Assembly: GCF_000305775.1 (NCBI RefSeq)
Contig: NC_018866.1
Location: 1,240,001-1,304,000 of the forward strand
Direction of reading: 5' to 3'
Source of the DNA: Dehalobacter sp. DCA
GTDB taxonomy: Bacteria > Bacillota > Desulfitobacteriia > Desulfitobacteriales > Syntrophobotulaceae
DNA length: 64,000 nucleotides
This document shows positions 17,925 to 45,656 of the stretch, one piece after another; the first letter of the stretch is position 1, and each line of letters begins with the position of its first letter. The notes below the pieces were generated by a model, which saw nothing but the letters and a program-made list of their open reading frames with translations, made no database searches and was not told the DNA's origin. Made by a program: the position numbers and the translations under genes.

Positions 17925-18018
17925 TACTTATGCTCATAATAACTTATTTAGGAAGTCCTGTACTTCGTTTGCGGCATCCATTATGTATTTGTAATGTTTA
18001 CTGATAAGCTTAACGAAT

Positions 18019-18677: not shown

Positions 18678-18707
18678 AATCAAATAGTGTATATGCACTA
18701 TTTGATT
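18678..18707. promoter_or_regulatory. 30-bp palindrome upstream of marR
   Basis: Perfect 12-base arms AATCAAATAGTG/CACTATTTGATT enclose TATATG. The centre GTGTATATGCAC is the operator core with one changed base. Its position, 23 bp before the marR start, fits autorepression. Confidence 0.65.
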
Positions 18708-28418: not shown

Positions 28419-28519
28419 TATGAGGCGCAGAGCATATTCAGTAATTTCGTCTTTTTTTACAGTCACAATTTTAAATTTTACTCAATTTGCCTCAATTAAC
28501 TCCGTATTATTTGTATTTT

Positions 28520-28948: not shown

Positions 28949-28963
28949 AATATATTACCTCCT
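28905..28963. repeat. 59-bp target-site duplication, left copy
   Basis: It is identical to 30998-31056 and flanks the IS1634 element. It contains the ribosome site and first 12 codons of the QueG-like gene at 28948. Confidence 0.9.
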
Positions 28964-30997
28964 CCTGACTTTAGGACTTATAAGACGAAAAACTGCTAGC
29001 ACTCAGCCCTGAAAACCGTTTAGATAGCGGAGTTCAGGGCTGATTTTTATGTAGAAAATATATTATATTTTGTCCTATTATGTCCTTTTATATTAGTTGC
29101 GATTATGGTATAATAGTTTTAGATATTTTTATCCAGAGGAGCCTTCTGTATGTACGTTGCCATAACAGGCTCGGGCAAGGCCCGGGTCATACAGTTTAGA
29201 GAAGATACCCGTATTCCGGGAACAACGAAGAAAAAGACGCATGTCGTGAAGACGATTGGTAACTATGAACGAATGCTCGCTGAGGATCCGGACATTATTG
29301 CCAAGCTTAAGGCTGAAGCAGCTGAACTGACAAGGGCAAAGAAGGAAACGACGCTCCTCTCGCTTTAAGCGTTACCGTTATGGACATCACATCACCTCAG
29401 GATGTTGTTCCTTCCTTCAGGTTCGGTCATGCGCTAATCAAACAGCTTTGGAGCACTATGGGGTTAGACGCCTTTTTTCTTGCTAATTGCGGAAAGCGCA
29501 ATGCTACAGCTGTTGGACAAGCTCTATTCTACCTTGTCGCCCATCGCTGCGCAGATCCTTGCAGTATCCATGCGAGTGCATTGGAACAGAATTCCTATGC
29601 GGGTATCCTTTCTCTTGGGATCGATGTCCTTTACGATGTTCTTGATGTACTCTCCCAGCAGAAAGAGGCCATCATAAGCCACCTTGCTGACTTCTTTGAA
29701 AAGAAAACCAGCCGCAGTGGTCCTGAAGCATACTATGACGTCACAACGTACGCTTTTGAGAGCACCCGCTGGGGCGAATTACGAATGTTTGGCTTCTCGA
29801 AGGATCACAAAAATAACGAAGTTCAGGTGGTCATGGGGCTGCTTTTGGACAACAACGGCATACCCATAACGTATGAACTTTTTCCAGGCAACACGATGGA
29901 TCAGTGTACTCTGACCCGATCGGTAGAGAAGCTTAAGAGTCTGTACAGGCTGGAAAAGATCACGGTGGTTGCCGACAGAGGACTCAACAGCGGCAGCAAT
30001 CTTGAGTACCTCTGCAAGGGTGGGCACGACTTCGTCATCAGCTATACTTTAAAGCGTTCTCCTGACTCCTTTAAGGAACTTGTATGGAACGACGAAGGAT
30101 GGCAAGATAGTGTGGACCTTGCCACAGGGGAGATAACCTCTCGTTCCAAGATCGTAGAGCAAATACTGGAGGTCAAGGTTCCCATAGATCAGGATGAGGA
30201 AAGTGCTGAAAAGAAAAAAAGAGGAAGGCCCAGGAAGTACACTATTGAAAAAATTCCCGTAAAGATACACTTAACCTGGTCGGCCAAACGGGCTAACAAA
30301 GACAGATCCGACAGGGAACGCGTACTAGAGAAGCTCAAGAAACGCCTTGACAAACCCTATCAGCTTAAGGCTGCAGTAAAACGGGGTTGCAATCAGTTTT
30401 TGCAGATGGAGCTTGACACAGAAGATTGGAAGCTGGATGAAGCAAAAATTGAGCAAGCCGCCCGCTATGATGGGTATTATGCGGTCATTACCAACAACCT
30501 GAACTTGAGCACAGATGAGGTTTCCAAGATATACGGAGGACTATGGAAGATCGAAGAGAGTTTTAGAATACTTAAGACTGACCTTAGAGCACGACCGGTT
30601 TTCGTATGGAATGACGAACATATTAAGGGGCACTTTGCCATGTGTTTCATCGCGTTATGCATACTCCGTTATGCACAGTACTTACTCGAACAATCAATGG
30701 GCAAGAGCGTTTCGGCCGCGCAAATCATGGAAGCAATACAGGACCCCCTTGCATTAGTTCAGGGAGAATACCCAAATAATATCGTTACCCCAACCCAAGT
30801 TTCCCAGACTTATCTCGATCTCGCATCGATACTCAAACTGACTCCTCTAAAGACAAACATGACACTGACCAAGTTCCGTTCATGCACAAAATTGGATCTA
30901 ACAATAAACCTAAAATAATAGGACAATTTAAAATCGCTGAATCTCTTGCGCATCAAGTGATTCAGCGATTTTTCGTCTTTTATCTTCTAAAGTCAGG
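28964..30997 (+). mobile_element. IS1634-family insertion sequence (about 2.03 kb)
   Basis: The terminal inverted repeats begin CCTGACTTTAG at 28964 and, inverted, at 30997. Similarity extends about 33 bp through AGACGAAAAA. The element encodes one transposase split over two frames. A 59-bp direct repeat borders it. Long, variable target duplications are known for IS1634-type elements. Confidence 0.9.
29150..30918 (+). CDS. IS1634-family transposase, split into two frames
   Basis: The first frame (29150-29368, 72 residues) has the usual N terminus (MYVAITGSGKARVIQFREDT, HVVKTIGNYERM, LAEDPDIIAKL). The second (ATG 29380, 512 residues) carries the DDE core: AYYDVTTYAFES, ITVVADRGLNSG and IYGGLWKIEESFRILKT. 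In most relatives these are one protein of about 580 residues. The switch falls at CTCTCGCTTTAAGC, where one base restores LSVTVMDITSPQD. It could be a mutation or programmed frameshifting. IS ends and target duplication are otherwise perfect, so the insertion looks recent. Confidence 0.85.
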
Positions 30998-31056
30998 ATC
31001 TCTTATATTTCCTTTATTTTATTCGCTTTGTTAATATCCATAATATATTACCTCCT
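30998..31056. repeat. 59-bp target-site duplication, right copy
   Basis: Right-hand copy of 28905-28963. Confidence 0.9.
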
Positions 31057-31205
31057 CGTATAATTGATTTAGTTCCACCCCACGAGTCCAAAAAACTAAT
31101 GGAACGTGGGGTATTTAAATGACCATAGAAAACTGGAAATTCAGTTAGTATGGTTAACATCAACAAGATGCGCGCAGGATAACGCATACTCCATGTAGCC
31201 ATCGT

Positions 31206-31334
31206 GCCTGTGGGCAGTGTGGACAAGTCAACCCCAAAGCATACTTCAAATTCAACTTGTCCAAAGCCTGTTGGGAAAGCTCTTTTAAGACAGACCCCAA
31301 AGTGCTTTTCCACAGGATGGCACTGCCCACAGGC
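31206..31334. repeat. Nested inverted repeat of unknown role
   Basis: The outer arms GCCTGTGGGCAGTG (31206-31219) and CACTGCCCACAGGC (31321-31334) match perfectly. Inner arms GGACAAGT/ACTTGTCC lie at 31221 and 31256. The neighbouring 31060-31780 has no credible gene. It may include the noncoding left end of the IS110 copy that follows. Confidence 0.5.
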
Positions 31335-31780
31335 TCAGGATGAGGAATACTTGATTTTGGGAAGGGGGTGCGGGGGAAACCCTTTTTGTTAGAGACTCTT
31401 TTGATGACTAACAAATGGCTTTTCCCCTTTAAAGGAACACACTTTCACTAAAAAGATTCCTCAGATCGTTCTTTAACAAAATAGTATTTAAGTTTGTTGG
31501 GATTTCAGGCAAAATGGTACCGTGAGGTTCGTTCTGGCAAGGCCTTCTCCTCCTTGAGGCTTTGACCTCTTTATTAAGTCTGACTGCCAGCCCACAATTT
31601 GAACTTTTAACTCGAAGGTTGCACAGCTTAAAGGGAATCCCCTCCGATGGTAGCAGATCGGCTGGATCCAAGGTCTTTTTAAGACAAGTGCTGATTCGGC
31701 GAGGTTGTTGACCTGTTGTGGTGCCTGGTCCCAACGTTAATCTTACACATTCTTCGGCTCAGAAAGTGAGGTGATTTTAC

Positions 31781-33021
31781 TTGAGTTTATTTGTCGGTAT
31801 TGATGTGAGTTCCAGTGATTTTAAAGTGCGAATCTTAGATGAGCGGGGTAATGAACCGGTAAAAAAACTGCGGGCTTTGAATGATCAGCCTGGTTGTGAG
31901 CAAGTTACCCGATATCTCTCTGAAGCCTGCGCTAAAGAGAATGAGGACCGGCTGGTTATTGGTTTAGAGGCCACTTCCGTGTACAGTTGGCCGTTACAAA
32001 TGTTCTTGGCGGAAGACCCTTGTTTAGCACCTTTACAGCCCCAAATCTATTCCTTTAACCCCAAGGTCGTTGCTAATTTCAAGAAAGCTTATGTGGACCT
32101 TCCGAAGAACGACTGGATTGATGCCTGGGTCATTGCCGAACGTTTACGCTTCGGCCGGCTCCCAGAAGGCTCTCAGGTTGATTTCCGCTACTTACCATTA
32201 CAGCGCCTCACTCGCTTTCGTTGTCATATGATTGAGATGATCTCCAGAGAGAAGAACTATTTTCTCACGAACTTGTTCTTGAAGTTTAGCACGCTTGCCC
32301 AAGGTACGGTTTTTAGCAACACTTTCGGCGCTACTTCTGAATCCTTGACACTTGAGTTTTTTTCTCCAGAAGAGGTTGCGGCTCGACCGCTTGATGAACT
32401 GATTGATTTCCTCATGGAGAAAGGAAAAAGTCATTTCGAGGATCCAGAAGCCAAAGCCAGAGAGTTGAAGGAAGCCGCCCGCAAGGCCCATCGACTACGT
32501 GGAAGCCTATTGCAACCCATTAACCTTATCCTGGCCACGAGCATCGAAACCATCCACACTTTAGAGAAGCAGGTAAAGAAAATCGATAAGGCGATCGAAG
32601 CAGAAATCAGGCATTTCTCTAATACGCTCATTACCGTTCCCGGTATTGGCCCAGTGCTTTCAGCTGGTATTATTGCTGAGATTGGAGACATCCGTCGTTT
32701 TCCAAATGAAGGAGCCTTAGCAAAGTTTATTGGGTTAACCTGGCGTTCTCACCAGTCAGGTGATTTTACAGCCGATGACACACCCTTAACCCGAACCGGC
32801 AACACCTACTTGCGCAGTTATATCATCCAGGCTGCTAATTAGTACGCCAAAAGGAACCGGAGTACAAAGCCTTCTACCAACGTAAATTCTCGGAAAGTAA
32901 GACTCACCATCATCGCCGTGCTCTAGTGCTTACTGCACGTAAACTCGTCCGTATGGTTGATGCTCTGCTACGCAGCAACCAAATCTATATGCCACATGGC
33001 AATAGGGGGAATGCAAACTAA
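31781..33021 (+). pseudogene. IS110-family transposase, nearly complete with one frameshift
   Basis: A TTG start (MSLFVGIDVSSSDFK) follows GAGGTG. The DEDD residues are present: GID, GLEATSVYSW and DLPKNDWIDAWVIAER. The Transposase_20 region (TVPGIGPVLSAGIIAEIGDI) and the C-terminal RTGNTYLRSYIIQAAN follow. At 32842 a frameshift separates the last 60 residues (RQKEPEYKAFYQRKFSESKT, ending at 33021). This copy belongs to a different IS110 branch from the one at 24411. Activity depends on whether the shift is real. Confidence 0.85.
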
Positions 33022-33272
33022 GCATGAACTACGATAATTGAAATCCCATTTTTGTAACTTTTTCCCATATCTTTTTGGGAATGAGATGGTTTCTTATTGT
33101 CTTTTTTACCCACTGATTATTAACTTACTGAAAAATTGACTCGCTTAGGGTCTTGACATATTACCGAAGGACTTACAAGATATGATATTACTTAGCACTG
33201 AATACTCTATCAGTGCTAAGGTATAAGTGTAGCCATCTGGTGGTCTTTGAACCATGCCAATGTAAGTTTATA
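33022..33272. terminator. Intergenic region with hairpin 33191-33220
   Basis: CTTAGCACTGA and TCAGTGCTAAG form an 11-bp perfect stem with an 8-base loop, without a U-run. It lies between the IS110 gene and the 3' end of the DUF2115 gene and may end transcription from either side. Nothing else was recognised. Confidence 0.4.
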
Positions 33273-33812
33273 TCAGTCATTTTTTAGTTCAGTTATATCT
33301 CTGCAAACACAATAAATGCATAAAGATAATTTTCCCTTAATTTGAGCTCTTCGCATAGGACAGTAATATTTATCGTTTTGCTTAATGATTTTCTCTGTTC
33401 CTTGCATAATCATTCCCAACGGGTGAAGCGGTTTTTTGCTTATGAAAGCCAAATAGGTTGAGATAATTCTAATATATTGTTTTAAGTCTATTTGTCCGGG
33501 AGCATTTTCGTCCATATAAATCTCTATACGATTCGAAAAATCTTCTATCAAATGTGGATTGATGTCCTCCGGATTATTTACATTTTCTTTTCTTATGATC
33601 TCGAAGTAATTACTTAAGTTATAGTTGGACATTAAATTACTTATATATTCTATACTACCTGGTTCAAAGACCTGATTAGTAGATTTATTGAGGTTTAGAA
33701 AGTTTTCGATATGTAGAGATTCGGCTTCATTTTTTATTATTATAAATAGATCCTGAGTATTCATAATTCTCGCCATTTTCAATTTAACAATTTCACGTTC
33801 ATTTTTTATCAT
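33273..33812 (-). CDS. DUF2115 (UPF0305) family protein
   Basis: The protein of about 179 residues ends in KPLHPLGMIM, then YYCPMRRAQIKGKLSLCIYC and VC. This cysteine pattern is the hallmark of DUF2115, best known from methanogenic archaea. The start MIKNEREIV at 33812 lies 6 bases after GGAGGT. The gene follows marR by 28 bp on the same strand, so they form an operon. The four cysteines suggest a metal or Fe-S site. No function is established for the family to my knowledge. Confidence 0.65.
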   Translation of the reverse strand: MIKNEREIVKLKMARIMNTQDLFIIIKNEAESLHIENFLNLNKSTNQVFEPGSIEYISNLMSNYNLSNYFEIIRKENVNNPEDINPHLIEDFSNRIEIYMDENAPGQIDLKQYIRIISTYLAFISKKPLHPLGMIMQGTEKIIKQNDKYYCPMRRAQIKGKLSLCIYCVCRDITELKND

Positions 33813-33840
33813 AAAGCACCTCCACAATAAGACAGATAAT

Positions 33841-34278
33841 TCAAATAGTCTCTATCTCAGATAATAATGCTGCGAGATTCTTTACATTATCTTTTCCAAG
33901 CCTTTGTTCAATAAATGCCTGGGCTTCCTGCCAAAGTAGCTCTGTTGAGTGATAGCGTTTTATACCTTCATCAGTCAATTGGAGGTGACGGTTACGTGTC
34001 CCTCTTGGTGAGATATCAATAATCAAGTCTTCTCTTTCAGGCGGCTCGAGATTTCTTACAAGAGTCGTTCGATCAAGTCCGACTTTCAAAGCTAAATCAC
34101 TTACGCAAACAGGACTCAAAAGTTTAATATTTTGTAGTAGTGAGAATTGACCAGCAGTTAACCCTTTTGGGGATAGTTTTTGATTATAAATTTTTGTTAT
34201 TACCAGAGAAGCCCGACGCAAATTTTGGCAGGCACACGTTGAGGGCCTTCTTTCAGTAATTTGGCTTTTCTTATCCAT
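33841..34278 (-). CDS. MarR-family regulator with CxC motif
   Basis: The intact 145-residue protein contains CACQNLRRASLVITKIYNQK, a winged helix (VSDLALKVGLDRTTLVRNLE) and the wing IDISPRGTRNRHLQL. It is a close relative of the MarR at 18227. It is the first gene of a marR-DUF2115 operon. A GTGTATATACTG site lies 25 bp before the start, so autoregulation is likely. Confidence 0.85.
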   Translation of the reverse strand: MDKKSQITERRPSTCACQNLRRASLVITKIYNQKLSPKGLTAGQFSLLQNIKLLSPVCVSDLALKVGLDRTTLVRNLEPPEREDLIIDISPRGTRNRHLQLTDEGIKRYHSTELLWQEAQAFIEQRLGKDNVKNLAALLSEIETI

Positions 34279-34302
34279 AAACTTCTCATCCTATACAAAT
34301 TG

Positions 34303-34314
34303 GTGTATATACTG
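34303..34314. promoter_or_regulatory. Operator candidate (GTGTATATACTG)
   Basis: Ten of 12 bases match the palindromic consensus GTGTATATACAC. It lies between the marR start (34278) and the upstream acetyltransferase. Confidence 0.5.
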
Positions 34315-34334
34315 TTTCTCCTTAACTGTAAGTA

Positions 34335-34943
34335 TTAATCTTCTTGGGGAAACCTGATACTTCTTGCTTTATATACTGCCTGGATAAAACCTCCGAATAC
34401 ATCGTGGCTGAAAGTAAACCCTTGGTTTAGATAGAAACGAAGCGCGGTGTCATTCCCATTGGAAACATAAATAAAAATCAGATATATATCATCAAAGCTT
34501 TCAAGCCACTCCATTGCCATGGTGAATAATCTTTTGCCAAGACCAATCCCACGGTACTCTGGCCGAAAAAATAGATTGCTCACACTACCAATCTTTTGAG
34601 GCTTGAGCCAGTCAGGATAGAACCCTTGCACTGTTTCTCCTTCCGAAACAGGAGCCCATACGGGAATACTGTTGTTCTTAGCGTTCATTTCATCAACGGT
34701 AGAAAAAATATATCCAATAGGAATACTATTGTGTTTTGCTACAATCACCTGTCTTCGAAGAGCTTCATTATAGGATTTTTTCATCCTAGTATCAAAGTTC
34801 ATATGATTAAATGCTTCAGGAATCAGCTTCGCCTTAGACTTTTGATAGGCCATTAGTTCACCGCACAAATCCCTACATTGCTCAATATCTCCATCATCAA
34901 GAATTTCCAAGGTAACATCGCTACCAATATACTGATTGTTCAT
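34335..34943 (-). CDS. GNAT-family N-acetyltransferase
   Basis: The 202-residue protein shows the acetyl-CoA site (VSNLFFRPEYRGIGLGKRLF) and C-terminal FYLNQGFTFS. Its start overlaps the stop of the upstream QueG-like gene by 4 bp (ATGA), so translation is coupled and the two belong to one operon. The substrate is unknown. Confidence 0.8.
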   Translation of the reverse strand: MNNQYIGSDVTLEILDDGDIEQCRDLCGELMAYQKSKAKLIPEAFNHMNFDTRMKKSYNEALRRQVIVAKHNSIPIGYIFSTVDEMNAKNNSIPVWAPVSEGETVQGFYPDWLKPQKIGSVSNLFFRPEYRGIGLGKRLFTMAMEWLESFDDIYLIFIYVSNGNDTALRFYLNQGFTFSHDVFGGFIQAVYKARSIRFPQED

Positions 34944-36007
34944 TTCATGCTCCTTTCCGGTGCAGGGAGCAATGTCTCTGCAAATAATTCACTACAAACA
35001 AGTTGCGCCATTTCGCGAATTTTCTCATTTTCATTTTTACAAGCCGCCAAAATATAAGTCTTATAGCGATCATCATAATTGTTGCGCATATAGTTTAATG
35101 CATTTACTTTCCATTTCCATAAATCATCAGGCTTCAAATAGAAAAATTTTGGCTGCACGTTCTGCTTGTAAAAGTCCTCATTCATACTCATGATCTTCTC
35201 AGGGATAAGATGTGGAGATATTTCAGATACACCTGGGAAATCCTCAATCCCCTCCAATTTACCTTTATTCATAGGGCATACTTCCTGGCATATGTCACAT
35301 CCATAAAGGCTATGGCCGAAGGTTTTGCTTAAAGGTTCGTTAGGCAGATCAAGTAACCCAATATTTGTCAGATACGAGACGCATTCAGTCGGTGACATGG
35401 CATACGGCGCAGAAAGTGAACCTGACGGGCAGGCTTTAATGCAGCGGTTACAGTTATCCGAACATTTCGGGAGGTCAACTTGCCCTATCAGTTCCAGCCT
35501 TTGGTCAATGATCCATCCCTGTAAAGTCACCCATGATCCGGATGATTTCGCATAGAAAAAATTGTTCCTGCGGATCATTCCGAGGCCTGCTTTCATCGCC
35601 GCCCATCGCAGGCCAATCAGCCCGAATTTGCGTTCATTGGCAAACCGGAGGCCCAGTGTCTGAATAAAGCTTTCCATTTCAAGGCCGGCCTGAAACTCCC
35701 GCGTGCTTTTATCAATACGGGTGTCAAACAAATAGTGTTTTCCGATGTTGCCCTGTATTTCCTCCGGAACAACGTATTTGCCGTACTGCTCGATGACTAT
35801 GACCACAGATTGTGCCCAAGAGAATGATTCTCGCGGATCAATCAGCCGGTACTGTCTTTGGTAGAATTTTTCGGACTGGGGGACTTTCTGCACGCGCTCG
35901 TGCATTCTCAGCCCATATTCGCTCAGCTTTTCGAGTGGGACTATGCCGCAATCCTCGTAACCCAATTCAAACGCTTTCTCTCGGATCATCTGCTCAAGAT
36001 TTGCCAT
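34940..36007 (-). CDS. Divergent QueG-like Fe-S reductase
   Basis: The intact protein has about 355 residues (start MANLEQMIREKAFELGYEDC, AGGTGA eight bases before). It keeps RWAAMKAGLG and RRNNFFY, and two cluster motifs (C182-x3-C186-x2-C189-x3-CP and YGCDICQEVCP). The QueG active-site Asp position is hydrophobic here (FGLIGLRW), so chemistry other than epoxyqueuosine reduction is likely. The C terminus has no clear HEAT AWALG motif. It sits 11 bp after a nitroreductase and overlaps an acetyltransferase, so its operon differs from the marR-linked copies. Confidence 0.8.
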   Translation of the reverse strand: MANLEQMIREKAFELGYEDCGIVPLEKLSEYGLRMHERVQKVPQSEKFYQRQYRLIDPRESFSWAQSVVIVIEQYGKYVVPEEIQGNIGKHYLFDTRIDKSTREFQAGLEMESFIQTLGLRFANERKFGLIGLRWAAMKAGLGMIRRNNFFYAKSSGSWVTLQGWIIDQRLELIGQVDLPKCSDNCNRCIKACPSGSLSAPYAMSPTECVSYLTNIGLLDLPNEPLSKTFGHSLYGCDICQEVCPMNKGKLEGIEDFPGVSEISPHLIPEKIMSMNEDFYKQNVQPKFFYLKPDDLWKWKVNALNYMRNNYDDRYKTYILAACKNENEKIREMAQLVCSELFAETLLPAPERSMK

Positions 36008-36018
36008 CACAATGTCAC

Positions 36019-36534
36019 CTACAAATTTTCATAGGCTACGATTTTTTCAAGGGTCTTTCGCCGTTTATCGTGATTTTCCGGAGTGATTGGCTCGTCGGCC
36101 GCATATCCAACCGCCAGAATATTGATCGGCTCCAAATTCTCGGGCATCTGAAACTCAGTTCTCAAAACAGCAGCGTCAAAAGCGCATATCCAACAGGTGC
36201 CTAATCCTAAGTCGGTCGCCTGCAGCATCATATGATCTGTCACGATGCTCGTGTCGATATCAATCATCGACTTGCCATCCTCCTTCACAGCGGCCTCTTT
36301 GTGATCGCCGCACGCGATAACCACAAGTGGCGCGCTGTAGATATTCGCCGCCTTTTTCACTTTTTCGAGCCCGGACGAGCTTTGGACAACGATCAGCTTA
36401 ATCGGGCGGCTATTGTGTGCCGAAGGTGCCACCCTTCCTGCCTCAAGAATTTTCTGCAGTTTTTCTGCCTCAACCTTTTCGCTTGTATATTTCCTTACGG
36501 AACGACGATTTGTCACAAGATTTAAAAAATCCAT
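36019..36534 (-). CDS. Nitroreductase-family FMN protein
   Basis: The 171-residue protein begins MDFLNLVTNRRSVRKYTSEK, the FMN-phosphate-binding start of the nitroreductase fold. It then has APSAHNSRPIKLIVV and ATDLGLGTCWICAFD. The family uses NAD(P)H to reduce nitro groups, quinones or flavins. It is followed 11 bp later by the QueG-like gene, which it might supply with electrons (inference). Confidence 0.88.
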   Translation of the reverse strand: MDFLNLVTNRRSVRKYTSEKVEAEKLQKILEAGRVAPSAHNSRPIKLIVVQSSSGLEKVKKAANIYSAPLVVIACGDHKEAAVKEDGKSMIDIDTSIVTDHMMLQATDLGLGTCWICAFDAAVLRTEFQMPENLEPINILAVGYAADEPITPENHDKRRKTLEKIVAYENL

Positions 36535-36551
36535 CTCTCATTTCTCCTTTA

Positions 36552-37178
36552 TTACCTGATAAAATTGGTTTGTATTTTTTCTTCCGCCTGGGGTGCGGGA
36601 ACGGCCTGTTTGCCTGCATCAATCACTTTCAGTTGCCACGCCATTGCCCTCGCATTTTTCCGAACCGTCTGTATGCCTTCCTTATCCTGCAGTACCTCTC
36701 CTTCAGAGAGCCCAAAGACGGTCATCCAATATTGAGACGGCGGCATTATCGTCTCGGAGAGCTCCAGATAATTCTGCAGCTGCCTATAAACATCCACTCC
36801 TCCGGCCCGCCTGACCACAGAAACCGCCGTCGCAACCTTGTACCTGAAATAGGCCCTGCTTGAAAAAAATACTCTGTCCAGAAATGCTTTTGTAGTGCCA
36901 GCGATGCCGCCAAAATACGTTGGCGACGCGAGAATAATCCCGTCGGCTTCGCGCATTCTCGCCGCAGTTTCGTTGACGGCATCGTCCTTGAAAACACATT
37001 GATTGCCCTGAGATTTGTTAAAGTATCCGCAGCCACTGCAGCCGTGAAGCAACTTGTCTCCAACTTGGATGACTTCTGTTTATATTCCTTGTTTATCAAG
37101 CTCTTCACTCATTAGGTTTAGGATTATCGCAGTATTCCCTGCGCTATTCGGACTTCCGTTAATTGCAATGACTTTCAT
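36552..37178 (-). pseudogene. Flavodoxin-fold NAD(P)H-dependent FMN reductase with one in-frame TAA
   Basis: ATG 37178 begins MKVIAINGSPNSAGNTAIIL, the phosphate loop of FMN reductases. TAA at 37080-37082 stands at codon 33, then the same frame continues TEVIQVGDKLLHGCSGCGYF. Next come ADGIILASPTYFGGIAGTTK and a complete C terminus. One substitution (for example GAA to TAA) explains the stop. The CSGC...C cysteines recall iron-sulfur flavoproteins but one ligand is missing. It leads a run of redox genes (nitroreductase, QueG-like), so loss or read-through would matter. Confidence 0.8.
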
Positions 37179-37365
37179 TATGTATACCACCTTTACTAAT
37201 TTTTAACAGCACTTTCGAAAACAAGCAAAAATCCATAGTACTTGATCCCTCCGATCTATAGTGAGAACACTCAATGATAATGTGTATAGCTTGCGTTATA
37301 AGGTAGTTGCCATAGCAAATAAGTCTGTTCTCTCAAGTGATTGGCCTGTGGACTTATTTGTCTTA

Positions 37366-37923
37366 TCAATAAAATATCATGCTGAAATAAGTTAACGTCT
37401 CGGGCCCATTATTATATTTAATACCGCAAACTTTGGCCGACTCCGTAACCAGAATTCCGTAGCTCTCTGTCGCAGGATGCATACGTTCAGGAAACCTGCA
37501 AGGCTTATCCGGATAGGTGCATGTATTGCATACCGTACACCCTTCCGTTGAAAGTACCAAAGCCACAGGATATTTTGATTGGAAGATTTTCGCGACTTTA
37601 TCGGTAACCCTCTCGTGCATTATTCTGTCGTCCTTCCATTCTTTAACATCAAACATATCTTTCAGATGGTACATTGTTGTGAATATGAACACATTCTCAT
37701 ACTCATTGCATCGCGCTTTACACTGCTCGACAGTTCCGACGGCCGGTGGACAGGCCCATGTGGTGCCATACATTCTGCATGTATTTTTTTCACAGATATT
37801 CCTTACTACATTGGAAAAAACGATATTTTCCGGCTTTGCAAATACGTGCTCAGCCAAATTGAGCTTTTCTTTCTGCAATAATATTTCACTTTCTATTATT
37901 AAAACGCTCCCTCTCTTGTCCAT
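37366..37923 (-). CDS. DUF2284 metal-binding protein
   Basis: The 185-residue protein has CRMYGTTWACPPAVG near residue 50 and EGCTVCNTCTYPDKPCRFPE near residue 127, the two cysteine blocks that define DUF2284. It probably binds an Fe-S cluster or another metal. Family members occur in anaerobes and methanogens beside corrinoid and redox genes. It is transcribed with its neighbours on the minus strand but spaced by about 190 bp from the reductase gene. Confidence 0.8.
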   Translation of the reverse strand: MDKRGSVLIIESEILLQKEKLNLAEHVFAKPENIVFSNVVRNICEKNTCRMYGTTWACPPAVGTVEQCKARCNEYENVFIFTTMYHLKDMFDVKEWKDDRIMHERVTDKVAKIFQSKYPVALVLSTEGCTVCNTCTYPDKPCRFPERMHPATESYGILVTESAKVCGIKYNNGPETLTYFSMIFY

Positions 37924-37971
37924 CTTGTTTTATTACAATTGATATTGTTAAAGGTATGGTATCTCTTGCTA

Positions 37972-38283
37972 TTAAGTAATCTCTATAACCACATTCCGGG
38001 GCAGAGCAAGTCCGCAGGCAACTTCAATGGCTTTTATAACTCCACAGGGAACAGGGCAAGCACCATGGGGACAATACTCCCGAAATGAACTATAAACCAG
38101 ACCTTCGCCGATTTTCCCAAAGCATTCTTTATATGCATCAACTTGTTTAAGTTCACTTTTTAGAGTACTGAAGTTGGGACATTCTGAATCGATCAAAAGT
38201 TGAGCATGTCGGCCATCATCAGATAGTGCATCTACTGTTGTGCAAAAGCCACAGATACCAGCATGAATTTTGATTTGTGCCAT
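37972..38283 (-). CDS. Small Cys-rich protein (DUF6951-like)
   Basis: The 103-residue protein has the spaced pattern HAGICGFCTTV, SECPNFSTL, EYCPHGACPVPCGVIKAIEV and CGLALPRNVVIEI. This is a conserved small family of clostridia and methanogens with a likely metal site. Function is unknown. A perfect 14-bp operator palindrome lies 26 bp upstream, so it is a probable target of the local MarR proteins. Confidence 0.6.
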   Translation of the reverse strand: MAQIKIHAGICGFCTTVDALSDDGRHAQLLIDSECPNFSTLKSELKQVDAYKECFGKIGEGLVYSSFREYCPHGACPVPCGVIKAIEVACGLALPRNVVIEIT

Positions 38284-38309
38284 ATGAAATTCATCTCCGT
38301 TCTAATTAA

Positions 38310-38323
38310 TGTGTATATACACA
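38310..38323. promoter_or_regulatory. Operator candidate (TGTGTATATACACA)
   Basis: A perfect 14-bp palindrome, 26 bp before the small Cys protein and about 100 bp beyond the marR stop at 38420. Confidence 0.7.
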
Positions 38324-38419
38324 CTTAATACATAATAAAACGCTGACTTTTATTTATCAGCAACAATAGTTTAGGCTTGTTTGTAAATTCAACGAAACTT
38401 GACTAAATCCATGTAGATT

Positions 38420-38856
38420 TCACGAATCCAAAGATTCCAGCTTTTGAAGAATAGTATCAAACATACGTATTTCCTCATCTGAGAGCAGTTTTTTATCGCC
38501 TGCTGCGCCTGTTCCCAGTGAGGGCGGGCCTCGTCCAACGATTTCAAACCTTTTGTTGTCAATGTAATCGTATATGCTTTTGAGTGCTTTCCGCTAATAC
38601 TTTCAACGAACTCTTTATCTTCAAGCAACTTTATATTTCTAACGAGAGTTGTGTGGTCTAAGCGGCAAGCTTCTGACAAATCTACCATAGTGATTGATCC
38701 CACGCTTTTCATTTTTACCAATAGTGCGTATTGAGTTGCTTTAAGCCCACTCGGCTCTAAAATCTTGTCATAGAAGTGGGTTACTGCTCGTGATGCACGT
38801 CTCATTTTGTTGCATTGGCATTCGTTAGGTCCAAAATACATATCTACATCTACCAT
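38420..38856 (-). pseudogene. MarR-family regulator, frameshifted in an A-run
   Basis: ATG 38856 begins MVDVDMYFGPNECQCNKMRR. The winged helix is MVDLSEACRLDHTTLVRNIK. After QAIKN an A-run near 38485 has probably lost one base. The other frame gives LLSDEEIRMFDTILQKLESL and a stop at 38420, restoring normal length. Read literally the protein has 155 residues with an aberrant tail. The DNA-binding part is whole. An operator palindrome lies 33 bp upstream. Confidence 0.75.
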
Positions 38857-38889
38857 AATTTCACCTACAAAAATATGATCTTATTTTTA

Positions 38890-38901
38890 GTGTATATACA
38901 C
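38890..38901. promoter_or_regulatory. Operator candidate (GTGTATATACAC)
   Basis: A perfect 12-bp palindrome 33 bp before the marR start, between it and the dehydrogenase gene end. Confidence 0.7.
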
Positions 38902-38999
38902 ATATCGTATTATAACAATGCGCTTTAAGTATGTCAAGTGAGAATAGAAAAATAAATAAGCTATCAGAAACCGACTTATTTGACAATGCTTTTGTTTTT

Positions 39000-39929
39000 T
39001 TAGCGCCATATTATATCAGGATCGATGTTATCACAATCAGCAGTACCAGTAACATTCATAATCATCTGAAGTTCCTCGGTTATTCCTTCAATAACCTTCC
39101 TTACACCATCGGCACCATCGGAAGCCAGACCGGTCATAACCGCCCTTCCGACTGAAACAGCCTTTGCACCAAGCGCCAAGGCTTTAAATGCATCAGTTCC
39201 GGTACTGATGCTGCAATCAACAAAAATAGGTATTCTCCGGTCGATGATCTTTGCAATGCGCGGCAAAATCATAAGGGGAGGCACCGCATAATCCAAAACG
39301 GAGCCGCTATGATGGGAAACAACAATCGCTGCCGCACCCACTTCCAATGCTTTTTTAGCGTCTTGCTCACTGAGAACCCCTTTTAATACAAAGGGCAATT
39401 TAGTCGCCTTTACATAGCTTTTGATATCATCCTGTGTTTTTGGACTCACAGGATAAGATTGGGCATAACCTTTATTTTTTTTGCTTCCAAACACGAAGTC
39501 TATATCCATCCCAACAGCCAAAGCACCGTATTTTTCCGCCTGAAATATTTTTTCAAATATCAAGTCTTTGTCTGAATATGGCTTAATGATTTTGACGGTC
39601 TTTGCCCCTGTCTCAATTATTGCCTTTAGTTCCTGTTCATTGCCGATGCCAGACCACATCACTGCGCCAGCCGCCGCTCCTTTTGCAACCTCAACCATCC
39701 CGTTTGGACGAATATTATCCAGTCCCGACAAAGCGGCTACCATCACGGGAGTCGCGAAAGATTCTCCAAAAAGCCCCATCTTTGATGAAGATTCTATAGA
39801 ATCTATTACTCGCATTTCGATCAGCAACGAGTCGATATAGTCACGTGTTATCCTGGAAGAATTACCCGGAGCCGCTGTATATCTACTGCTCATTCCTTTT
39901 TCTTGCAGCTTTTTTTCTCCGTCATTCAT
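39000..39929 (-). CDS. FMN-dependent alpha-hydroxy-acid dehydrogenase/oxidase-like
   Basis: The 309-residue TIM-barrel protein contains the FMN-binding Lys segment LPFVLKGVLSEQDAKKAL, the catalytic His region IVVSHHSGSVLD, and the phosphate site FVDCSISTGTDAFKALALGA with KAVSVGRAVMTG. Family enzymes oxidise L-lactate, glycolate or similar acids, with electrons passing to an acceptor. It is shorter at the N terminus than lactate oxidase (about 350). The substrate is unknown. It is transcribed toward the marR gene, with no operator recognised upstream. Confidence 0.8.
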   Translation of the reverse strand: MNDGEKKLQEKGMSSRYTAAPGNSSRITRDYIDSLLIEMRVIDSIESSSKMGLFGESFATPVMVAALSGLDNIRPNGMVEVAKGAAAGAVMWSGIGNEQELKAIIETGAKTVKIIKPYSDKDLIFEKIFQAEKYGALAVGMDIDFVFGSKKNKGYAQSYPVSPKTQDDIKSYVKATKLPFVLKGVLSEQDAKKALEVGAAAIVVSHHSGSVLDYAVPPLMILPRIAKIIDRRIPIFVDCSISTGTDAFKALALGAKAVSVGRAVMTGLASDGADGVRKVIEGITEELQMIMNVTGTADCDNIDPDIIWR

Positions 39930-40120
39930 ATAAATACCTCCGTTTGAATATTTCAGCCATATCGACTGATAGTGCAGAGAAAGCCGGTTTTCATCGCTTA
40001 TTGCAGCACCTTTCGGAATTTACAGATTCCAGCTAATCGGCTTATTATACATTTCTGTTTGATGTGTCAAAAAACAAAGCTTATATTAGAGCACGCCTTT
40101 GCCGGCGAGAATGAGAAAAT

Positions 40121-40711
40121 TCAATCTTTGCTGATATTTTGACACATTTCAATTATGACATTCTTAAAATAATCTAAAGAAATCGGTTCAATATCAATGG
40201 ACACTTGAGTATAATCAAAAAACTCCAATATTTCTTCGTCAGAAATATTGGATACCCCGCTGTCAAGCACAAGAATCTCATACGATCCGAAATTTATCCT
40301 GGCATCAACCGGGTCCCATCCCTGTCCTTGCTGAAATATTTCATGCCAGTATTTTAACCAGCCGCTGGTCATATAAAAAACATTATACGCGCTATCTATC
40401 TCTTTTTTTCTTTCTGGATCGAATAACAACTCGATACAGTTATGCGCTTCTGGATAAGTGGCTCTGAAATCCCTGGCTATTTGAGATAATTCCTGATGAC
40501 ACATGCTTCCATAAAGCAGCAATGTTTTTTGATTTTTGAGAGATTCCAGACCGTTAACAATTCCTGTCTTCAATTTTTTATTGTCAACATGCAATGCAGG
40601 CGGCACAAAATTAATGACTATATTTTGATTAAGTAAATCCAGCTTGACTTCCGGCAGAATTTTTTCAATTTCTGGCTGAAAAATACCACAGGATAATATA
40701 TGCACAACCAT
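40121..40711 (-). CDS. DUF1638-family protein
   Basis: The 196-residue protein matches the DUF1638 layout: CGIFQPEIEKI near the N terminus, PPALHVDNKKLK, LLYGSMCHQE, and YMTSGWLKYWHEIFQQGQGW. A C-terminal FFDYTQVSIDIEPISLDYF follows. The family occurs in methanogens and anaerobes, often near corrinoid methyltransferases. Its function is not established. It lies about 190 bp upstream of the dehydrogenase on the same strand. Confidence 0.65.
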   Translation of the reverse strand: MVVHILSCGIFQPEIEKILPEVKLDLLNQNIVINFVPPALHVDNKKLKTGIVNGLESLKNQKTLLLYGSMCHQELSQIARDFRATYPEAHNCIELLFDPERKKEIDSAYNVFYMTSGWLKYWHEIFQQGQGWDPVDARINFGSYEILVLDSGVSNISDEEILEFFDYTQVSIDIEPISLDYFKNVIIEMCQNISKD

Positions 40712-40801
40712 GTTCTACACAACTCCTTAGATATCCCTTCTTTTTGTTATGAGCCCAACAAAAAGAAGGGATATTTATGTTGTCATATATTGATAATTTT
40801 T

Positions 40802-41107
40802 TTATATTAGCGCATCTACTCCGGTAGGGATGAAAATAAGTTGCTTATCTTTTGCCTCCGCCGTGCCTGTGAGTCGATAACCTTTAGGCCCCCCATCCAT
40901 GGTTGCCCCTACCACCCATGCATTTTTATTTGATGCTAGATTCTTTTGTGTGATCTCCATCTTATAAATACCGAAGACCACTGTGTCACTTACTACTTGG
41001 CCTTTACCTGCAATAATAGGATGAGGGGTTCCGTTTGCATCTACCGTAACAAGCGAGAGAAATGCCGATCCTTCAATAACTTTCTTTACATCTTCATTGA
41101 TAACCAT
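40802..41107 (-). CDS. PPOX-fold (pyridoxamine 5'-phosphate oxidase-like) flavoprotein
   Basis: The 101-residue split-barrel protein begins INEDVKKVIEGSAFLSLVTV and has VFGIYKMEITQKNLASNK and PKGYRLTGTAEA. This group binds FMN or F420 and reduces small molecules or scavenges flavin. It is divergent from the hxlR gene with 122 bp between, so HxlR is its likely regulator. Confidence 0.75.
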   Translation of the reverse strand: MVINEDVKKVIEGSAFLSLVTVDANGTPHPIIAGKGQVVSDTVVFGIYKMEITQKNLASNKNAWVVGATMDGGPKGYRLTGTAEAKDKQLIFIPTGVDALI

Positions 41108-41140
41108 ATTTTCGCCTCCATAAAAATTATATGATAGCTA

Positions 41141-41169
41141 TTCACTCTGTTATTGCTATCTAGTATAAT
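41141..41169 (+). promoter_or_regulatory. Sigma-A-type promoter candidate for hxlR
   Basis: TTCACT (41141-41146) and TATAAT (41164-41169) are spaced by 17 bases, about 60 bp upstream of the HxlR start in the divergent intergenic region. Confidence 0.45.
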
Positions 41170-41229
41170 AATACTACTGCGCTATTTCATTTTCAAGAAC
41201 GCAGAATATAATGAGTAGGTGCGGAAAAT

Positions 41230-41616
41230 ATGATCAAAGTAATCGATCAAAGTAATCGGCCTTGTAAAGATAATTGCCCATGTATGGACTATTGTCCATT
41301 GGGAAGTGCTCTAAGGGTGGTAGGTGGAAAATGGAAGATACCAATTTTATGTGCCCTTCATCAGGATGGTACGACAAGGTACAATGAACTGAAACGTAAG
41401 ATTAGAGGTATAACAAATACTATGTTAGCGAGTTCATTAAAAGAGTTGGAGGAAAATGGCCTTATACATCGTGAACAACATATGGAGATGCCGGTGCGAG
41501 TAGAATATACATTAACCGACATTTGCCGTGACTTAATGCCGATTCTAAAGCAACTTGCACATTGGGGAGTTCAGGTTCATACGTCGGAATCGCCACAGGC
41601 ACATACTACTGAATAA
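41230..41616 (+). CDS. HxlR-family transcriptional regulator
   Basis: The 128-residue winged-helix protein contains CPLGSALRVVGGKWKIPILC, RYNELKRKIRGITNTMLASS and a basic wing (EMPVRVEYTLT). Extra N-terminal cysteines (CKDNCPCMDYC) suggest thiol or electrophile sensing, known for relatives such as HypR and YodB. It is divergent to the PPOX-fold gene, its probable target. A terminator hairpin lies 300 bp downstream at 41915. Confidence 0.88.
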   Translation: MIKVIDQSNRPCKDNCPCMDYCPLGSALRVVGGKWKIPILCALHQDGTTRYNELKRKIRGITNTMLASSLKELEENGLIHREQHMEMPVRVEYTLTDICRDLMPILKQLAHWGVQVHTSESPQAHTTE

Positions 41617-42226: not shown

Positions 42227-44047
42227 TCATCTCCTTTCAGGTTCCTGCTTTTGCACAAACTGTTCAAAGGTTATACCCTGAACAGGCGTATGCACCGGGC
42301 CGCCCGACGCAGCTGCTTCTGTTTCAGCTTCCTCCGGCACCTCCACACAGGCGGAATGGCGCAGGATGATTTCTTCCTCCACCTTGTGCCTGTCGGCATA
42401 CTCTACCTGTCTGGCCGATTGTTCGGCGATCTCATACGGCTTGCCGAAGGTAATACCCCATTCCTTGAACAGCTTCAGCCGGGTGCGAATCGGATAGGCG
42501 CCGGTCTTGGTGACGATAAACCGGCCTTTGGGCATGGACTTAAGCTCATCGGGTGTCATCAGCGGACGTTCGATCATCTGCAGACTCTGGGACGGATCGT
42601 TTTTACCCCGGCTGACCGAGCCGCTCATGACCGTCTTGCTTCCCATGGCTTTCGACAAAATCTGCGCCGACTCGCTGTTAGGAGCAAAGCCGCCGAACAC
42701 CGTGTCCTGGCAGTTGTCGATGATGATGGCCGAACCCTCTCTGCCATAGTTTTTCTCCAACTGAGCGAAGGATTGTATGATCGCTACTATTGACACCCGC
42801 CTCGAACGACTGGCGCTGAACATCATCTCAGCAGACTCAATTTTGGGTATGGTCCCGATCTCGTCGAGGAACATCATCACCCGGTTGGGGAGCTTGCCGC
42901 CATGCTCGTCGGCCACCGACAGGATCTCGCGGTAGAGCTGCTGGACGATCAGGCTGATGATGAAATATTTTGTGTTATCTTCCTCCGGCATGACAAGGAA
43001 GATGGCGCTTTTTTTGGTGCAGAACCTCTCCGCGTCGATTGCCGTGTCAAAGCACAGGATCTGCTCCAGCTCGGAATCCAGAAAGGCATTGAGCCGGGAG
43101 AGCGCGGTTGAGAGGACGCTCTGCATGGCCTGCTCCGCCGAGTTGAGCGCCGCACCCGCAAACCACTTGGTCTTATGCTCGTCCGGCAGGTGGGCAAGGA
43201 GCAGTTGGAACAAAGTCCTGCCCTTGACGCCGCTGGGCACCAGCAGATCCTGTATGAGTTTGAACACCGATACGATGTGCCTCTGCTTCGGCTCACAGTA
43301 TTCGGCGATAAGCAGTATTACGGAGGTCAGCAGACCTTCCGCCGCGTCGTAGAAGAAGGCATTTTGTCCGGCCATCGCCGTATCGAAGCCTCCGGAGGAG
43401 ATGATGGTCTTGGCGGTGATCTTGGCATATTTCTCCGCTCTGGCCTTGTATGCCAGGTTCTGAGGGTTTTTCAGATAGGCGTCCATATACCTGTTGACCA
43501 GATGGAGCAGATTGTTGCCGTCCGAGCGGGTGGGGTTTCTCAGGTCGATGACCGCCACCTCATAGCCGTAGCAGTCCTTGGCGATCCCGGCGTAGTTGCG
43601 GTAGAGGTCGCCCTTGGTGTCGGTGCAGAGCCAGCTCATGCCGCAGGCACAGGCGTATTCCAGATTCGGATAGAGGAAGTTTGCGGTCTTGCCGACGCCG
43701 GCCGCGCCGATCATCAGGCAGTGGATATCGTCATCGTCTACCAGCGCATACCCGTGTGGAGCGGTATCGTCAAACAAAGGCGCTTTCCTCCAGCCGACGA
43801 TAAGGCCCTGCTCTTTCGGGAGGCTTTCGCCCTTCCGCCATTTTTCAGGCTCATAGGGAACCTCGGTATATGTCTTTTTGATCTCCCGCTTGGTTGCCCA
43901 GCGCGCTGTGCCGTGCTGACCGTCGCCGACCGTTTTGGACTTGATGCCGTTCAGGGTATAGTAATGCGCTATGAGCGATAACAGCCCGATCACGCCGAAC
44001 ATGGTCAGTCCGGCTGCGGTCAGGATTACGATTTGGGATGTCTGCAA
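42227..44047 (-). CDS. virD4: VirD4-like type IV coupling protein
   Basis: The 606-residue membrane ATPase recruits the relaxase-DNA complex to the secretion channel. An N-terminal hydrophobic segment spans residues 7-28. Walker A is GAAGVGKT (114-121) and Walker B is NRVMMFLDEIGTI. The C-terminal third is variable and acidic. It fits VirD4 proteins of Tn1549-like elements in size and order. It lies 13 bp downstream of the primase gene. Confidence 0.93.
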   Translation of the reverse strand: MQTSQIVILTAAGLTMFGVIGLLSLIAHYYTLNGIKSKTVGDGQHGTARWATKREIKKTYTEVPYEPEKWRKGESLPKEQGLIVGWRKAPLFDDTAPHGYALVDDDDIHCLMIGAAGVGKTANFLYPNLEYACACGMSWLCTDTKGDLYRNYAGIAKDCYGYEVAVIDLRNPTRSDGNNLLHLVNRYMDAYLKNPQNLAYKARAEKYAKITAKTIISSGGFDTAMAGQNAFFYDAAEGLLTSVILLIAEYCEPKQRHIVSVFKLIQDLLVPSGVKGRTLFQLLLAHLPDEHKTKWFAGAALNSAEQAMQSVLSTALSRLNAFLDSELEQILCFDTAIDAERFCTKKSAIFLVMPEEDNTKYFIISLIVQQLYREILSVADEHGGKLPNRVMMFLDEIGTIPKIESAEMMFSASRSRRVSIVAIIQSFAQLEKNYGREGSAIIIDNCQDTVFGGFAPNSESAQILSKAMGSKTVMSGSVSRGKNDPSQSLQMIERPLMTPDELKSMPKGRFIVTKTGAYPIRTRLKLFKEWGITFGKPYEIAEQSARQVEYADRHKVEEEIILRHSACVEVPEEAETEAAASGGPVHTPVQGITFEQFVQKQEPERR

Positions 44048-44060
44048 TGCGACCCCTCCT

Positions 44061-45494
44061 TTACATGGTCATAGAAAAATTTACTGCCTGCTCCTGCGAC
44101 GGGAGCATCGACGGAAGCTCTTGCTCAGCAAACATAATAGTTTTGACGCTGTCCAGCGCAAGGCGCTGATAGGAGGACAGGAGCTTTTCCTTATCCGCCA
44201 GTGTCCGGATGCCCGGGGCCTGAAGCTGGCGGCATATTTCCGTTACATCCTGGCGCAGCTGTTCCGCCTTAGCGCGAAGCCAGCCTCTATCCTCATGGGG
44301 ACGGTAGCTTTCCTGCAGCTTTTGGATGAGCTGCTCCATTGTCGCAGGCTGTTCCATCTGGTTAAGCTGCCTTTGCATGGCAGCCAGCGAGCCGGCAGCC
44401 ATACACTGCAGGCATTCCCGAACAGCGTCCGTGTTTAGATCTACTGTTTTGCCGGAAGCAAGAAACGGCTCCACCGCCTCGGCGCACTCTGCGAGGAAGG
44501 AGTCAATGTCCTTATGCGTTGAGAGGGCTTTGCACAAATCATGCAGTTCACCGACAACCTTCGGCAGAAGCTCCAGCTTCGGATGCACCTGTGCCGGGAT
44601 GGGACTGACACCGTTATTGGCTTTCAGATCCTCATTCCAGTCCTTGTGCTGCGATTGCATTACGAAAACATCCGTATATCCCTTCTCCAACAGGATATCC
44701 TTCAGGCGTCCGCTGGCTTCGATGCCTGCTTCGTCATGGTCCAGGCACAGCACGACGCTTTTCAGATGAGGATTCAGCTCCAGCTGACGGAGCATGGCGT
44801 GTTCCGACACGCCGTCCAGCGTGACATAGCTGTGCCGCCGCCAGTCCTTCCGGTTCAGTGTGATGAAGGACAGCATATCCACCGGCGCCTCGAACACATG
44901 GAGGACACCGCTCTCTCCGATCCAGTGGAAGCTGTATTTCGGATCGCTGCCCTCCACGTTTCCTTTATAAGGTTCGCCCTGGGTGTAAGTGCCGCGCTTG
45001 TGAGCGTGGCGGGGGACGCTGTTTTCACCCAGCCCGATAAACACCGCGTTGTGATATTCCTTGTCCTCATAGATCAGCTTTTCATGGGCGAAGCGGGACA
45101 GCACCTCACGGTCAATGAACCGCCGCTTTATCAGATAGGCAAATACCCGGCGCATATCGTGATTGGCTTCCGGAAGAGTGAATTTCTTACGGGGAGCAGG
45201 CGCGCTCTTGACCGTCTGGTTCCACTCCACGCCGCAGTCCTCTCCAAGCAGATAATTTACCGCTTCGGGAAAGCTCATATCATAGAACTGCTGGACGAAG
45301 TCAATGGCGTGACCGCCTTCTTTGCGGGAGTGACGGAACCATTGATTACCGCGCACGGTCACGCTGTCATGACGCTTCCAGCGCCACTCCCGGCCGGAAC
45401 GCACAAGCTGCTCTCCCTGACGCTGAAGGAAATCTACCAGGTCGACTGAGTTGGCCTGCTGCTTCTGTTCGTCTGTAAAATGAATGTATGCCAA
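44061..45494 (-). CDS. DUF3991/TOPRIM primase-like protein
   Basis: The 477-residue protein begins with a CHC2-like fold lacking an obvious zinc motif (DSVTVRGNQWFRHSRKEGGH). It then has DUF3991 and a TOPRIM domain (VFEAPVDMLSFITL ... VVLCLDHDEAGIEASGRLKD). Such proteins prime DNA synthesis on the transferred strand. The C-terminal 150 residues are helical, and the very end (QAVNFSMTM) resembles the tail shared by other proteins of this element. Confidence 0.85.
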   Translation of the reverse strand: MAYIHFTDEQKQQANSVDLVDFLQRQGEQLVRSGREWRWKRHDSVTVRGNQWFRHSRKEGGHAIDFVQQFYDMSFPEAVNYLLGEDCGVEWNQTVKSAPAPRKKFTLPEANHDMRRVFAYLIKRRFIDREVLSRFAHEKLIYEDKEYHNAVFIGLGENSVPRHAHKRGTYTQGEPYKGNVEGSDPKYSFHWIGESGVLHVFEAPVDMLSFITLNRKDWRRHSYVTLDGVSEHAMLRQLELNPHLKSVVLCLDHDEAGIEASGRLKDILLEKGYTDVFVMQSQHKDWNEDLKANNGVSPIPAQVHPKLELLPKVVGELHDLCKALSTHKDIDSFLAECAEAVEPFLASGKTVDLNTDAVRECLQCMAAGSLAAMQRQLNQMEQPATMEQLIQKLQESYRPHEDRGWLRAKAEQLRQDVTEICRQLQAPGIRTLADKEKLLSSYQRLALDSVKTIMFAEQELPSMLPSQEQAVNFSMTM

Positions 45495-45538
45495 AGTGCA
45501 TTCCTCCTTTGTCAGCGCTTGCGCTTACCGCATCGGCG

Positions 45539-45569
45539 AAAAAAAGCCACCCGCCGATAAGCGGATGGC
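45539..45569 (-). terminator. Intrinsic terminator after the relaxase gene
   Basis: On the minus strand GCCATCCGC pairs with GCGGGTGGC around TTATCG, followed by TTTTTTT. It separates the mob genes from the primase-virD4 operon. Confidence 0.75.
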
Positions 45570-45656
45570 CTGCGTGACGCCAGGCTGATTTTTTCGGGAA
45601 ACGGTTCTTTTTTCTGAATATCTTGATTGAGGCTTTTGCATGAAAACCCTCCCTTG

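Follow-up and report, generated by a model that had tools for sequence, protein, structure and literature searches.

The window analysed here, a stretch of 64,000 nucleotides from Dehalobacter sp. DCA, corresponds to bases 1240001-1304000 of a genome of 3,069,953 bases held in a single contig, and carries between positions 33273 and 41616 a cluster of redox and regulatory genes that includes MarR regulators and a protein with the fold of the epoxyqueuosine reductase QueG (the QueG-like protein). We tentatively interpret the core of this cluster as an inducible, cobamide-dependent reductase module. All protein families named in the original prediction for the cluster were found where it had placed them by Pfam or NCBIfam searches (Pfam matches are above gathering cut-offs unless noted otherwise), although its gene list overlooked a GNAT acetyltransferase, did not recognise that the flavodoxin and second MarR genes are broken and carried a hydroxy-acid dehydrogenase label that finds no support. 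The genes are as follows, with the ratio of non-synonymous to synonymous substitution rates (dN/dS) referring to a sister element described below:

33273-33827 (-): DUF2115, 184 aa, closing the packed half-operon (Pfam PF09888, 141.7 bits)
33841-34278 (-): MarR1, with an N-terminal CxC (49% identity to the MarR at 18227-18655; weak NCBIfam MarR matches)
34335-34943 (-): GNAT acetyltransferase (Pfam PF00583, 44.7 bits)
34940-36010 (-): QueG-like protein with the QueG fold and two [4Fe-4S] sites, without the QueG catalytic residues (Fer4_16, TIGR00276, Foldseek)
36019-36534 (-): nitroreductase-family protein (Pfam PF00881, 99.8 bits)
36552-37178 (-): flavodoxin-like NADPH-dependent FMN reductase, interrupted (translation; Pfam PF03358)
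37366-37923 (-): DUF2284 metal-binding protein (Pfam PF10050, 164 bits; dN/dS 0.32)
37972-38283 (-): DUF6951, small Cys-rich protein (Pfam PF22263, 127.6 bits)
38389-38856 (-): MarR2, frameshifted near the C terminus (Pfam MarR_2)
39000-39929 (-): FMN_dh-fold protein (Pfam PF01070, 214 bits)
40121-40711 (-): DUF1638, subgroup A (Pfam PF07796, 99 bits; dN/dS 0.23)
40802-41107 (-): PNPOx-fold flavoprotein, PNPOx_N (Pfam PF01243, 30 bits against a cut-off of 28)
41230-41616 (+): divergently oriented HxlR regulator, Cys cluster at the N terminus (Pfam PF01638, 99 bits)

The genes for flavodoxin, nitroreductase, QueG-like protein, GNAT, MarR1 and DUF2115 are tightly packed in this order, with gaps of 17, 8, -4, 56 and 13 bp, and the DUF6951-DUF2284 pair stands apart from this half; intervals of ~90-190 bp separate DUF1638, PNPOx, FMN_dh and MarR2, and HxlR is transcribed divergently, so that, judged by spacing, the cluster does not form a single transcription unit. 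Translation of the flavodoxin gene from its start at 37178 meets an in-frame TAA at codon 33, hence the listed open reading frame (ORF) of 166 aa represents the downstream part only. In MarR2, the C-terminal tail is lost by the frameshift and continues in another frame. MarR1 gave no Pfam match; it aligns with MarR2 and other MarRs. A search by sequence for solved structures of DUF2115, DUF6951, DUF1638 and DUF2284 returned nothing significant, and an AlphaFold model of DUF1638 from a single sequence was not used (predicted local distance difference test, pLDDT, 37). Between PNPOx and DUF1638 lies an inverted repeat of 21 nt (40728-40777; 95% complementary, 8-nt loop).

The QueG-like protein

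QueG was the best match of the QueG-like protein in both sequence and fold over its full length (profile of 7 sequences, E 2.6e-33), with a Foldseek search of the structure model returning QueG (5d08/5d6s) at E ~1e-10 and a TM score of 0.65-0.69, likewise over the full length. Like QueG, a class III cobamide/2x[4Fe-4S] enzyme (PDB 5d08, 5d6s, 5t8y), the protein combines an N-terminal nitroreductase-type region, a ferredoxin region and a C-terminal alpha-helical repeat, and the eight cluster cysteines common to both are invariant (C183, C187, C190, C194, C210, C238, C241 and C245). Where the two proteins part is in their catalytic residues: the catalytic Asp of QueG (Asp130 St/Asp134 Bs) is replaced by K128, and by Asn in the Dehalobacter paralogues, while the Asp-Tyr-His motif is missing from 35/35 aligned QueG-like proteins of two MarR-linked clades, albeit in a region where the alignment is less certain. 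Both features are missing from the close clade and from the second, HEAT-type clade alike, and the one canonical QueG in the same alignment exhibits both. The family models also remained below threshold, TIGR00276 (QueG) scoring 104.2 bits against a cut-off of 200 and TIGR02486 (RdhA) 24.3 bits against 160. Epoxyqueuosine reductase function was rejected on these residues and the family cut-off: by these tests, the protein has the QueG fold but is not QueG.

Unlike QueG, the protein is moreover paired with a MarR regulator and a conserved operator. With the reductive dehalogenase RdhA (e.g. PceA, 4uqu) it has the cobamide/ferredoxin core in common, but the match in sequence and fold is weak, the QueG-like protein is shorter and its partner is MarR instead of RdhB/CRP-FNR. 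The fold suggests that the protein may bind a cobamide. A literature search for QueG-like proteins returned QueG itself and an unrelated phage paper only.

MarR regulators and a shared operator

The cysteines to which the original prediction had drawn attention in the regulators proved to be conserved in the MarR subfamily, with CxC preceding the first helix in 24/26 members and the longer motif CxCxNxRRA present in 22/26. When upstream regions were checked, the palindrome AGTGTATATACACT was found to precede the MarR genes; the 12-bp core of this operator is GTGTATATACAC, i.e. GTG[T/C]ATAT[A/G]CAC. Allowing up to two mismatches, AGTGTATATACACT was present in 18/26 MarR upstream regions compared with 4/457 other ORFs. 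In other genomes the exact core was found upstream of 17/21 CxC MarR and 16/32 QueG-like genes, compared with 4/863 other genes, the usual layout being site-MarR-site-QueG-like; since the operator matrix was built from such sites, the MarR and QueG-like counts are partly circular, a limitation that does not extend to the background count, the own-genome scan or the DUF targets. In the window, 4 operator sites were observed against 0.11 expected; scores are those of the position weight matrix (PWM), and the third MarR gene is included below:

231-244 (.): perfect MarR operator, upstream of a decayed paralogous cluster
18227-18655 (-): third MarR of the subfamily, adjoining a HEAT-type QueG-like gene at 16771-17892
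18686-18699: MarR operator, with the MarR at 18227-18655
34300-34317 (.): degenerate MarR operator, 22 bp upstream of MarR1 (PWM 10.8, background level)
38310-38323 (.): MarR operator, ~27 bp upstream of DUF6951-DUF2284 (PWM 24.2)
38889-38902 (.): MarR operator upstream of MarR2, just downstream of a sigma-70 promoter

The sigma-70 promoter (38937-38909) matches the consensus at 12/12 positions, exhibits an extended -10 element and directly precedes the MarR2 operator. In the own-genome scan, which covered 964 kb of 3.07 Mb, every match scoring >15 fell in this island or at a second MarR-QueG-like pair. Elsewhere, the operator stands before DUF2115-DUF1638 (G083, with the order MarR-site-DUF2115-DUF1638), DUF2284 (G034) and DUF3786-DUF1638 (G012), and in two genomes (G011 and G014) a divergent nitroreductase gene and MarR have the operator-bearing intergenic region in common. 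The operator is thus common to MarR, QueG-like and some DUF genes and ties part of the set together: a palindromic site found at both regulator and targets, as in a MarR regulon, with DNA binding by MarR predicted from sequence. Literature searches on the operator sequence returned nothing relevant. A further repeat, CAAATAAGTC, near DUF2284 and MarR2 was considered and discarded: three exact copies are present, and with one mismatch allowed their number is not above chance. A Clostridium contig (L045, 18639-20008) carries a second MarR of the subfamily, followed by an operator and a 279-aa gene with a weak 4Fe-4S match, a possible regulon member. In the window, a broken MarR and a GNAT gene have an operator-like site between them (1699-1716 and 934-1557); GNAT also adjoins MarR1.

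The main rival explanation is inducible reductive detoxification, in which the CxC MarR would sense an electrophile (an epoxide, an organohalide or a nitro-/quinone-type aromatic) and induce QueG-like reductase, nitroreductase and FMN reductase that destroy it, leaving the corrinoid-linked DUF proteins as bystanders. The near invariance of the CxC motif would fit such sensing, as would the nitroreductase gene packed against the QueG-like gene in the window and the divergent nitroreductase at the MarR-operator region in G011 and G014; furthermore, the class III cobamide fold is already used for dehalogenation and epoxide reduction (PMC4646009), and the HEAT-type QueG-like/MarR pairs are without corrinoid neighbours. 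However, detoxification leaves the operator-linked DUF2115-DUF1638, DUF2284, DUF6951-DUF2284 and DUF3786-DUF1638 genes unexplained, the flavodoxin partner is interrupted in the window and the Tyr conserved between QueG and RdhA was not seen in the QueG-like clade, in a region where the alignment is uncertain. We regard this explanation as somewhat unlikely.

Related loci and the host element

The original prediction had tied the DUF families to corrinoid metabolism, which is borne out by their neighbourhoods. Counting corrinoid-methyltransferase genes (corrinoid protein, UroD-type, MtrH-type, RACo) within 1.5 kb and using the FMN_dh family as negative control, we found such neighbours at 19/30 DUF1638 and 18/28 DUF2284 loci compared with 0/28 for the control, so that gene neighbourhood establishes a link between these two DUF families and corrinoid-methyltransferase loci. 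The DUF6951-DUF2284 pair is conserved and forms the end of operons for RACo, pterin-binding (MtrH), corrinoid-protein and UroD-type methyltransferase genes. In two genomes of the Dehalobacter group, the MarR-QueG-like pair directly precedes genes for a corrinoid protein and a UroD methyltransferase. For DUF1638 there is experimental background: in Phaeobacter, methionine synthesis depends on DUF1638 and a RamA-like protein, a dependence attributed to B12 reactivation, and DUF1638 mutants require methionine, consistent with this role (PMC5764234). The families had also been described as shared with methanogens and typical of strict anaerobes; DUF2284 and DUF1638, being common in ordinary Clostridia, are not specific to methanogen-like anaerobes.

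Co-occurrence of the set in other genomes was partial. DUF2115 is rare in Bacillota (5/398 genomes), yet 4/7 of its copies in the searched genomes lie within 10 kb of DUF1638, making the association more than chance. Three further loci combine DUF2115 and DUF1638 with a QueG-like or MarR gene, namely G083, G026 (DUF1638-DUF1638-DUF2115-Fe-S protein, the last being QueG-like) and a decayed paralogous cluster in the own genome immediately left of the window (1237.9-1240.2 kb, spanning L003 18002-20000 and the window start), which consists of a QueG-like gene, a DUF1638 fragment, DUF2115 with a TAG, an intact DUF1638 and a MarR fragment. To this extent the proposed co-occurrence is upheld, but the close QueG-like genes (55-60% identity; Dehalobacter, Clostridium, Desulfosporosinus-like) keep only MarR of the cluster genes alongside, and some relatives, e.g. 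in Sulfurospirillum, are without even MarR. DUF1638-PNPOx is a conserved pair in 13/20 related loci of the order, and a Crp-type gene frequently comes next (Pfam confirmed one such case). A direct duplication of 2 kb with 99.55% identity (7158-9158 and 16177-18174) carries a HEAT-type QueG-like gene and stands between further broken MarR and QueG-like copies.

The cluster adjoins conjugation genes identified by Pfam: coupling protein, primase-like protein, MobL relaxase and TrbL. Relaxase (MobL), coupling protein (T4SS-DNA_transf/TraG, where T4SS denotes the type IV secretion system) and mating-pore gene (TrbL), as expected of a conjugative element, are thus all present, and the main group is placed as follows:

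42227-48335 (-): conjugation genes (T4SS coupling protein, toprim/DUF3991 primase-like protein, MobL relaxase; Pfam; ~91% nucleotide identity to the sister element)

The sister element, found in a genome of the same genus (G055), is the same element at ~91% nucleotide identity; it possesses longer recombinase ORFs, the window holding only a 228-aa recombinase fragment. Its gene order is HxlR, PNPOx, DUF1638, a piece of FMN_dh fused by deletion to a piece of DUF6951, and DUF2284. Window positions 28322-37285, comprising flavodoxin to DUF2115 together with insertion sequence (IS) elements, are missing from it, so the cluster, carried on a mobile element, falls into at least two separable segments. 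IS110 and IS4-type (DDE) transposases flank the cluster, which is, as judged from its gene content, the mosaic cargo of a conjugative (MobL-type) element. Plasmid relatives were sought for DUF2115 and for the element, and none were found. HipA-like (49330-50592) and Fic-domain (53781-54581) proteins amid the conjugation genes are possible toxin-antitoxin cargo, and the mobile island also encodes a B12-dependent methionine synthase (20293-23940) that is full-length and includes an activation domain of its own.

The element seems to sit in a previously described, genus-wide integration hotspot of Dehalobacter, a nested recombinase island between rdhB and rumA (PMC11578063): the window falls between rumA at 1416 kb of the genome and rdhA/rdhB candidates at ~1219-1220 kb, where a probable rdhA end and small rdhB-type anchor ORFs were judged by eye without a model, and like the published island it is rich in IS elements and conjugative genes. 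The cargo described in the part of that report considered here is reductive dehalogenase and mec, with MarR/QueG-like cargo not among it.

Such a setting raises the question of whether the cluster is decaying mobile-island debris, a set of genes that IS elements and a conjugative element brought together and that now has no joint function. The mosaic structure, the segment absent from the sister element with its FMN_dh-DUF6951 fusion, the flavodoxin stop, the MarR2 frameshift, the flanking transposases and the decayed paralogous cluster with broken MarR/QueG-like copies at 0-19 kb all speak for this. Against it, HxlR, PNPOx, DUF1638 and DUF2284 are under purifying selection (dN/dS 0.16-0.32 compared with the sister element), the QueG-like ORF is of full length and keeps every cluster cysteine, the operators before DUF6951 and MarR2 are intact and the MarR-QueG-like pair recurs with its operator intact in many genomes; we consider debris to be an unlikely explanation.

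The separability of the two halves also bears on the electron chain that had originally been proposed, in which an organic-acid dehydrogenase would feed the QueG-like Fe-S/corrinoid reductase by way of flavodoxin and nitroreductase. In favour of such a chain, all named protein types are present within 8.3 kb. In the FMN_dh-fold protein, however, alignment to lactate oxidase revealed that the active-site His is kept (SHHSGS) while both substrate-carboxylate Arg residues are replaced (HGARQ to HSGSV, VRRG to ISTG), and the assignment as a 2-hydroxy-acid dehydrogenase was discarded because both substrate-binding arginines are absent. Moreover, 0/28 FMN_dh-related loci have any other family of the set within 1.5 kb, the flavodoxin gene is interrupted and the halves of the cluster are separable, which makes a single chain highly improbable. 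The FMN_dh-like, PNPOx and HxlR genes probably do not belong to the module but adjoin it on the element.

A candidate corrinoid-linked reductase module

The best explanation is, in our view, an inducible cobamide-dependent reductase module that serves or uses corrinoid systems, a tentative reading with slightly less than an even chance of being correct and with a putative mechanism. Its core would consist of two genes, encoding a CxC MarR repressor and a QueG-fold reductase with base-off cobamide and two [4Fe-4S] clusters. MarR would bind AGTGTATATACACT before its own gene and before the reductase gene and repress both, until an inducer or oxidant acts on MarR and the reductase is made; accessory proteins would be co-induced behind the same operator, DUF6951-DUF2284 here and DUF2115-DUF1638, DUF2284 or DUF3786-DUF1638 elsewhere. 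Low-potential electrons would pass through the two clusters to the cobamide, and the reductase may then either service corrinoid proteins through reduction or reactivation, or apply its cobamide to the inducing compound.

Several observations weigh against this module. The cluster in the window is itself without a methyltransferase or corrinoid protein; corrinoid neighbours were found at 0/21 HEAT-type QueG-like genes and at only two close QueG-like loci, both from one lineage. The operator at MarR1 is degenerate, scoring at background level, and operators are present at few DUF copies elsewhere (DUF1638 0/51, DUF2284 1/33, DUF6951 0/30), so that recruitment of these genes would be occasional. 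Two cluster genes are broken, through the TAA in flavodoxin and the frameshift in MarR2. The structure model of the QueG-like protein, with its putative cobamide site, is of moderate quality (pLDDT 68), being poor in the ferredoxin/cluster region.

Comparison with known corrinoid activation systems offers one way of placing the module. The RACo/RamA-type activases found with DUF1638 (Phaeobacter, PMC5764234; Ruegeria glycine betaine, PMC12478193) belong to loci whose accessory set includes DUF1638, DUF2284 and DUF6951. Unlike these, the window cluster contains no RACo, the RACo genes of the genome being located elsewhere, and the QueG-like Fe-S protein stands in the module where RACo/RamA systems have RACo. 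A bolder extension, which we think quite unlikely to hold in full, is that MarR-linked QueG-fold proteins are a new, widespread family of class III cobamide/[4Fe-4S] reductases, distinct from both dehalogenases and epoxyqueuosine reductases, that act, with DUF1638, DUF2115, DUF2284 and DUF6951, as inducible reductive activators of corrinoid proteins, providing a second route beside ATP-driven RACo/RamA. The fold, the DUF1638-B12 link and the hotspot were known previously; the literature searched yielded no description of a MarR/operator/QueG-like module lacking the catalytic residues of QueG, nor of the occasional recruitment to it of DUF2115, DUF2284, DUF6951 and DUF1638.

Anaerobes that dechlorinate solvents or consume methyl groups need their cobalt cofactors to be kept reduced, and several of the proteins linked to this task are without a known job. 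A conserved DNA switch over a putative B12-type reductase and these DUF proteins would provide a direct handle on their function, through the inducer and the genes that respond to it. A candidate branch of cobamide enzymes without the known catalytic residues may also be travelling on mobile DNA in a genus of importance for bioremediation.

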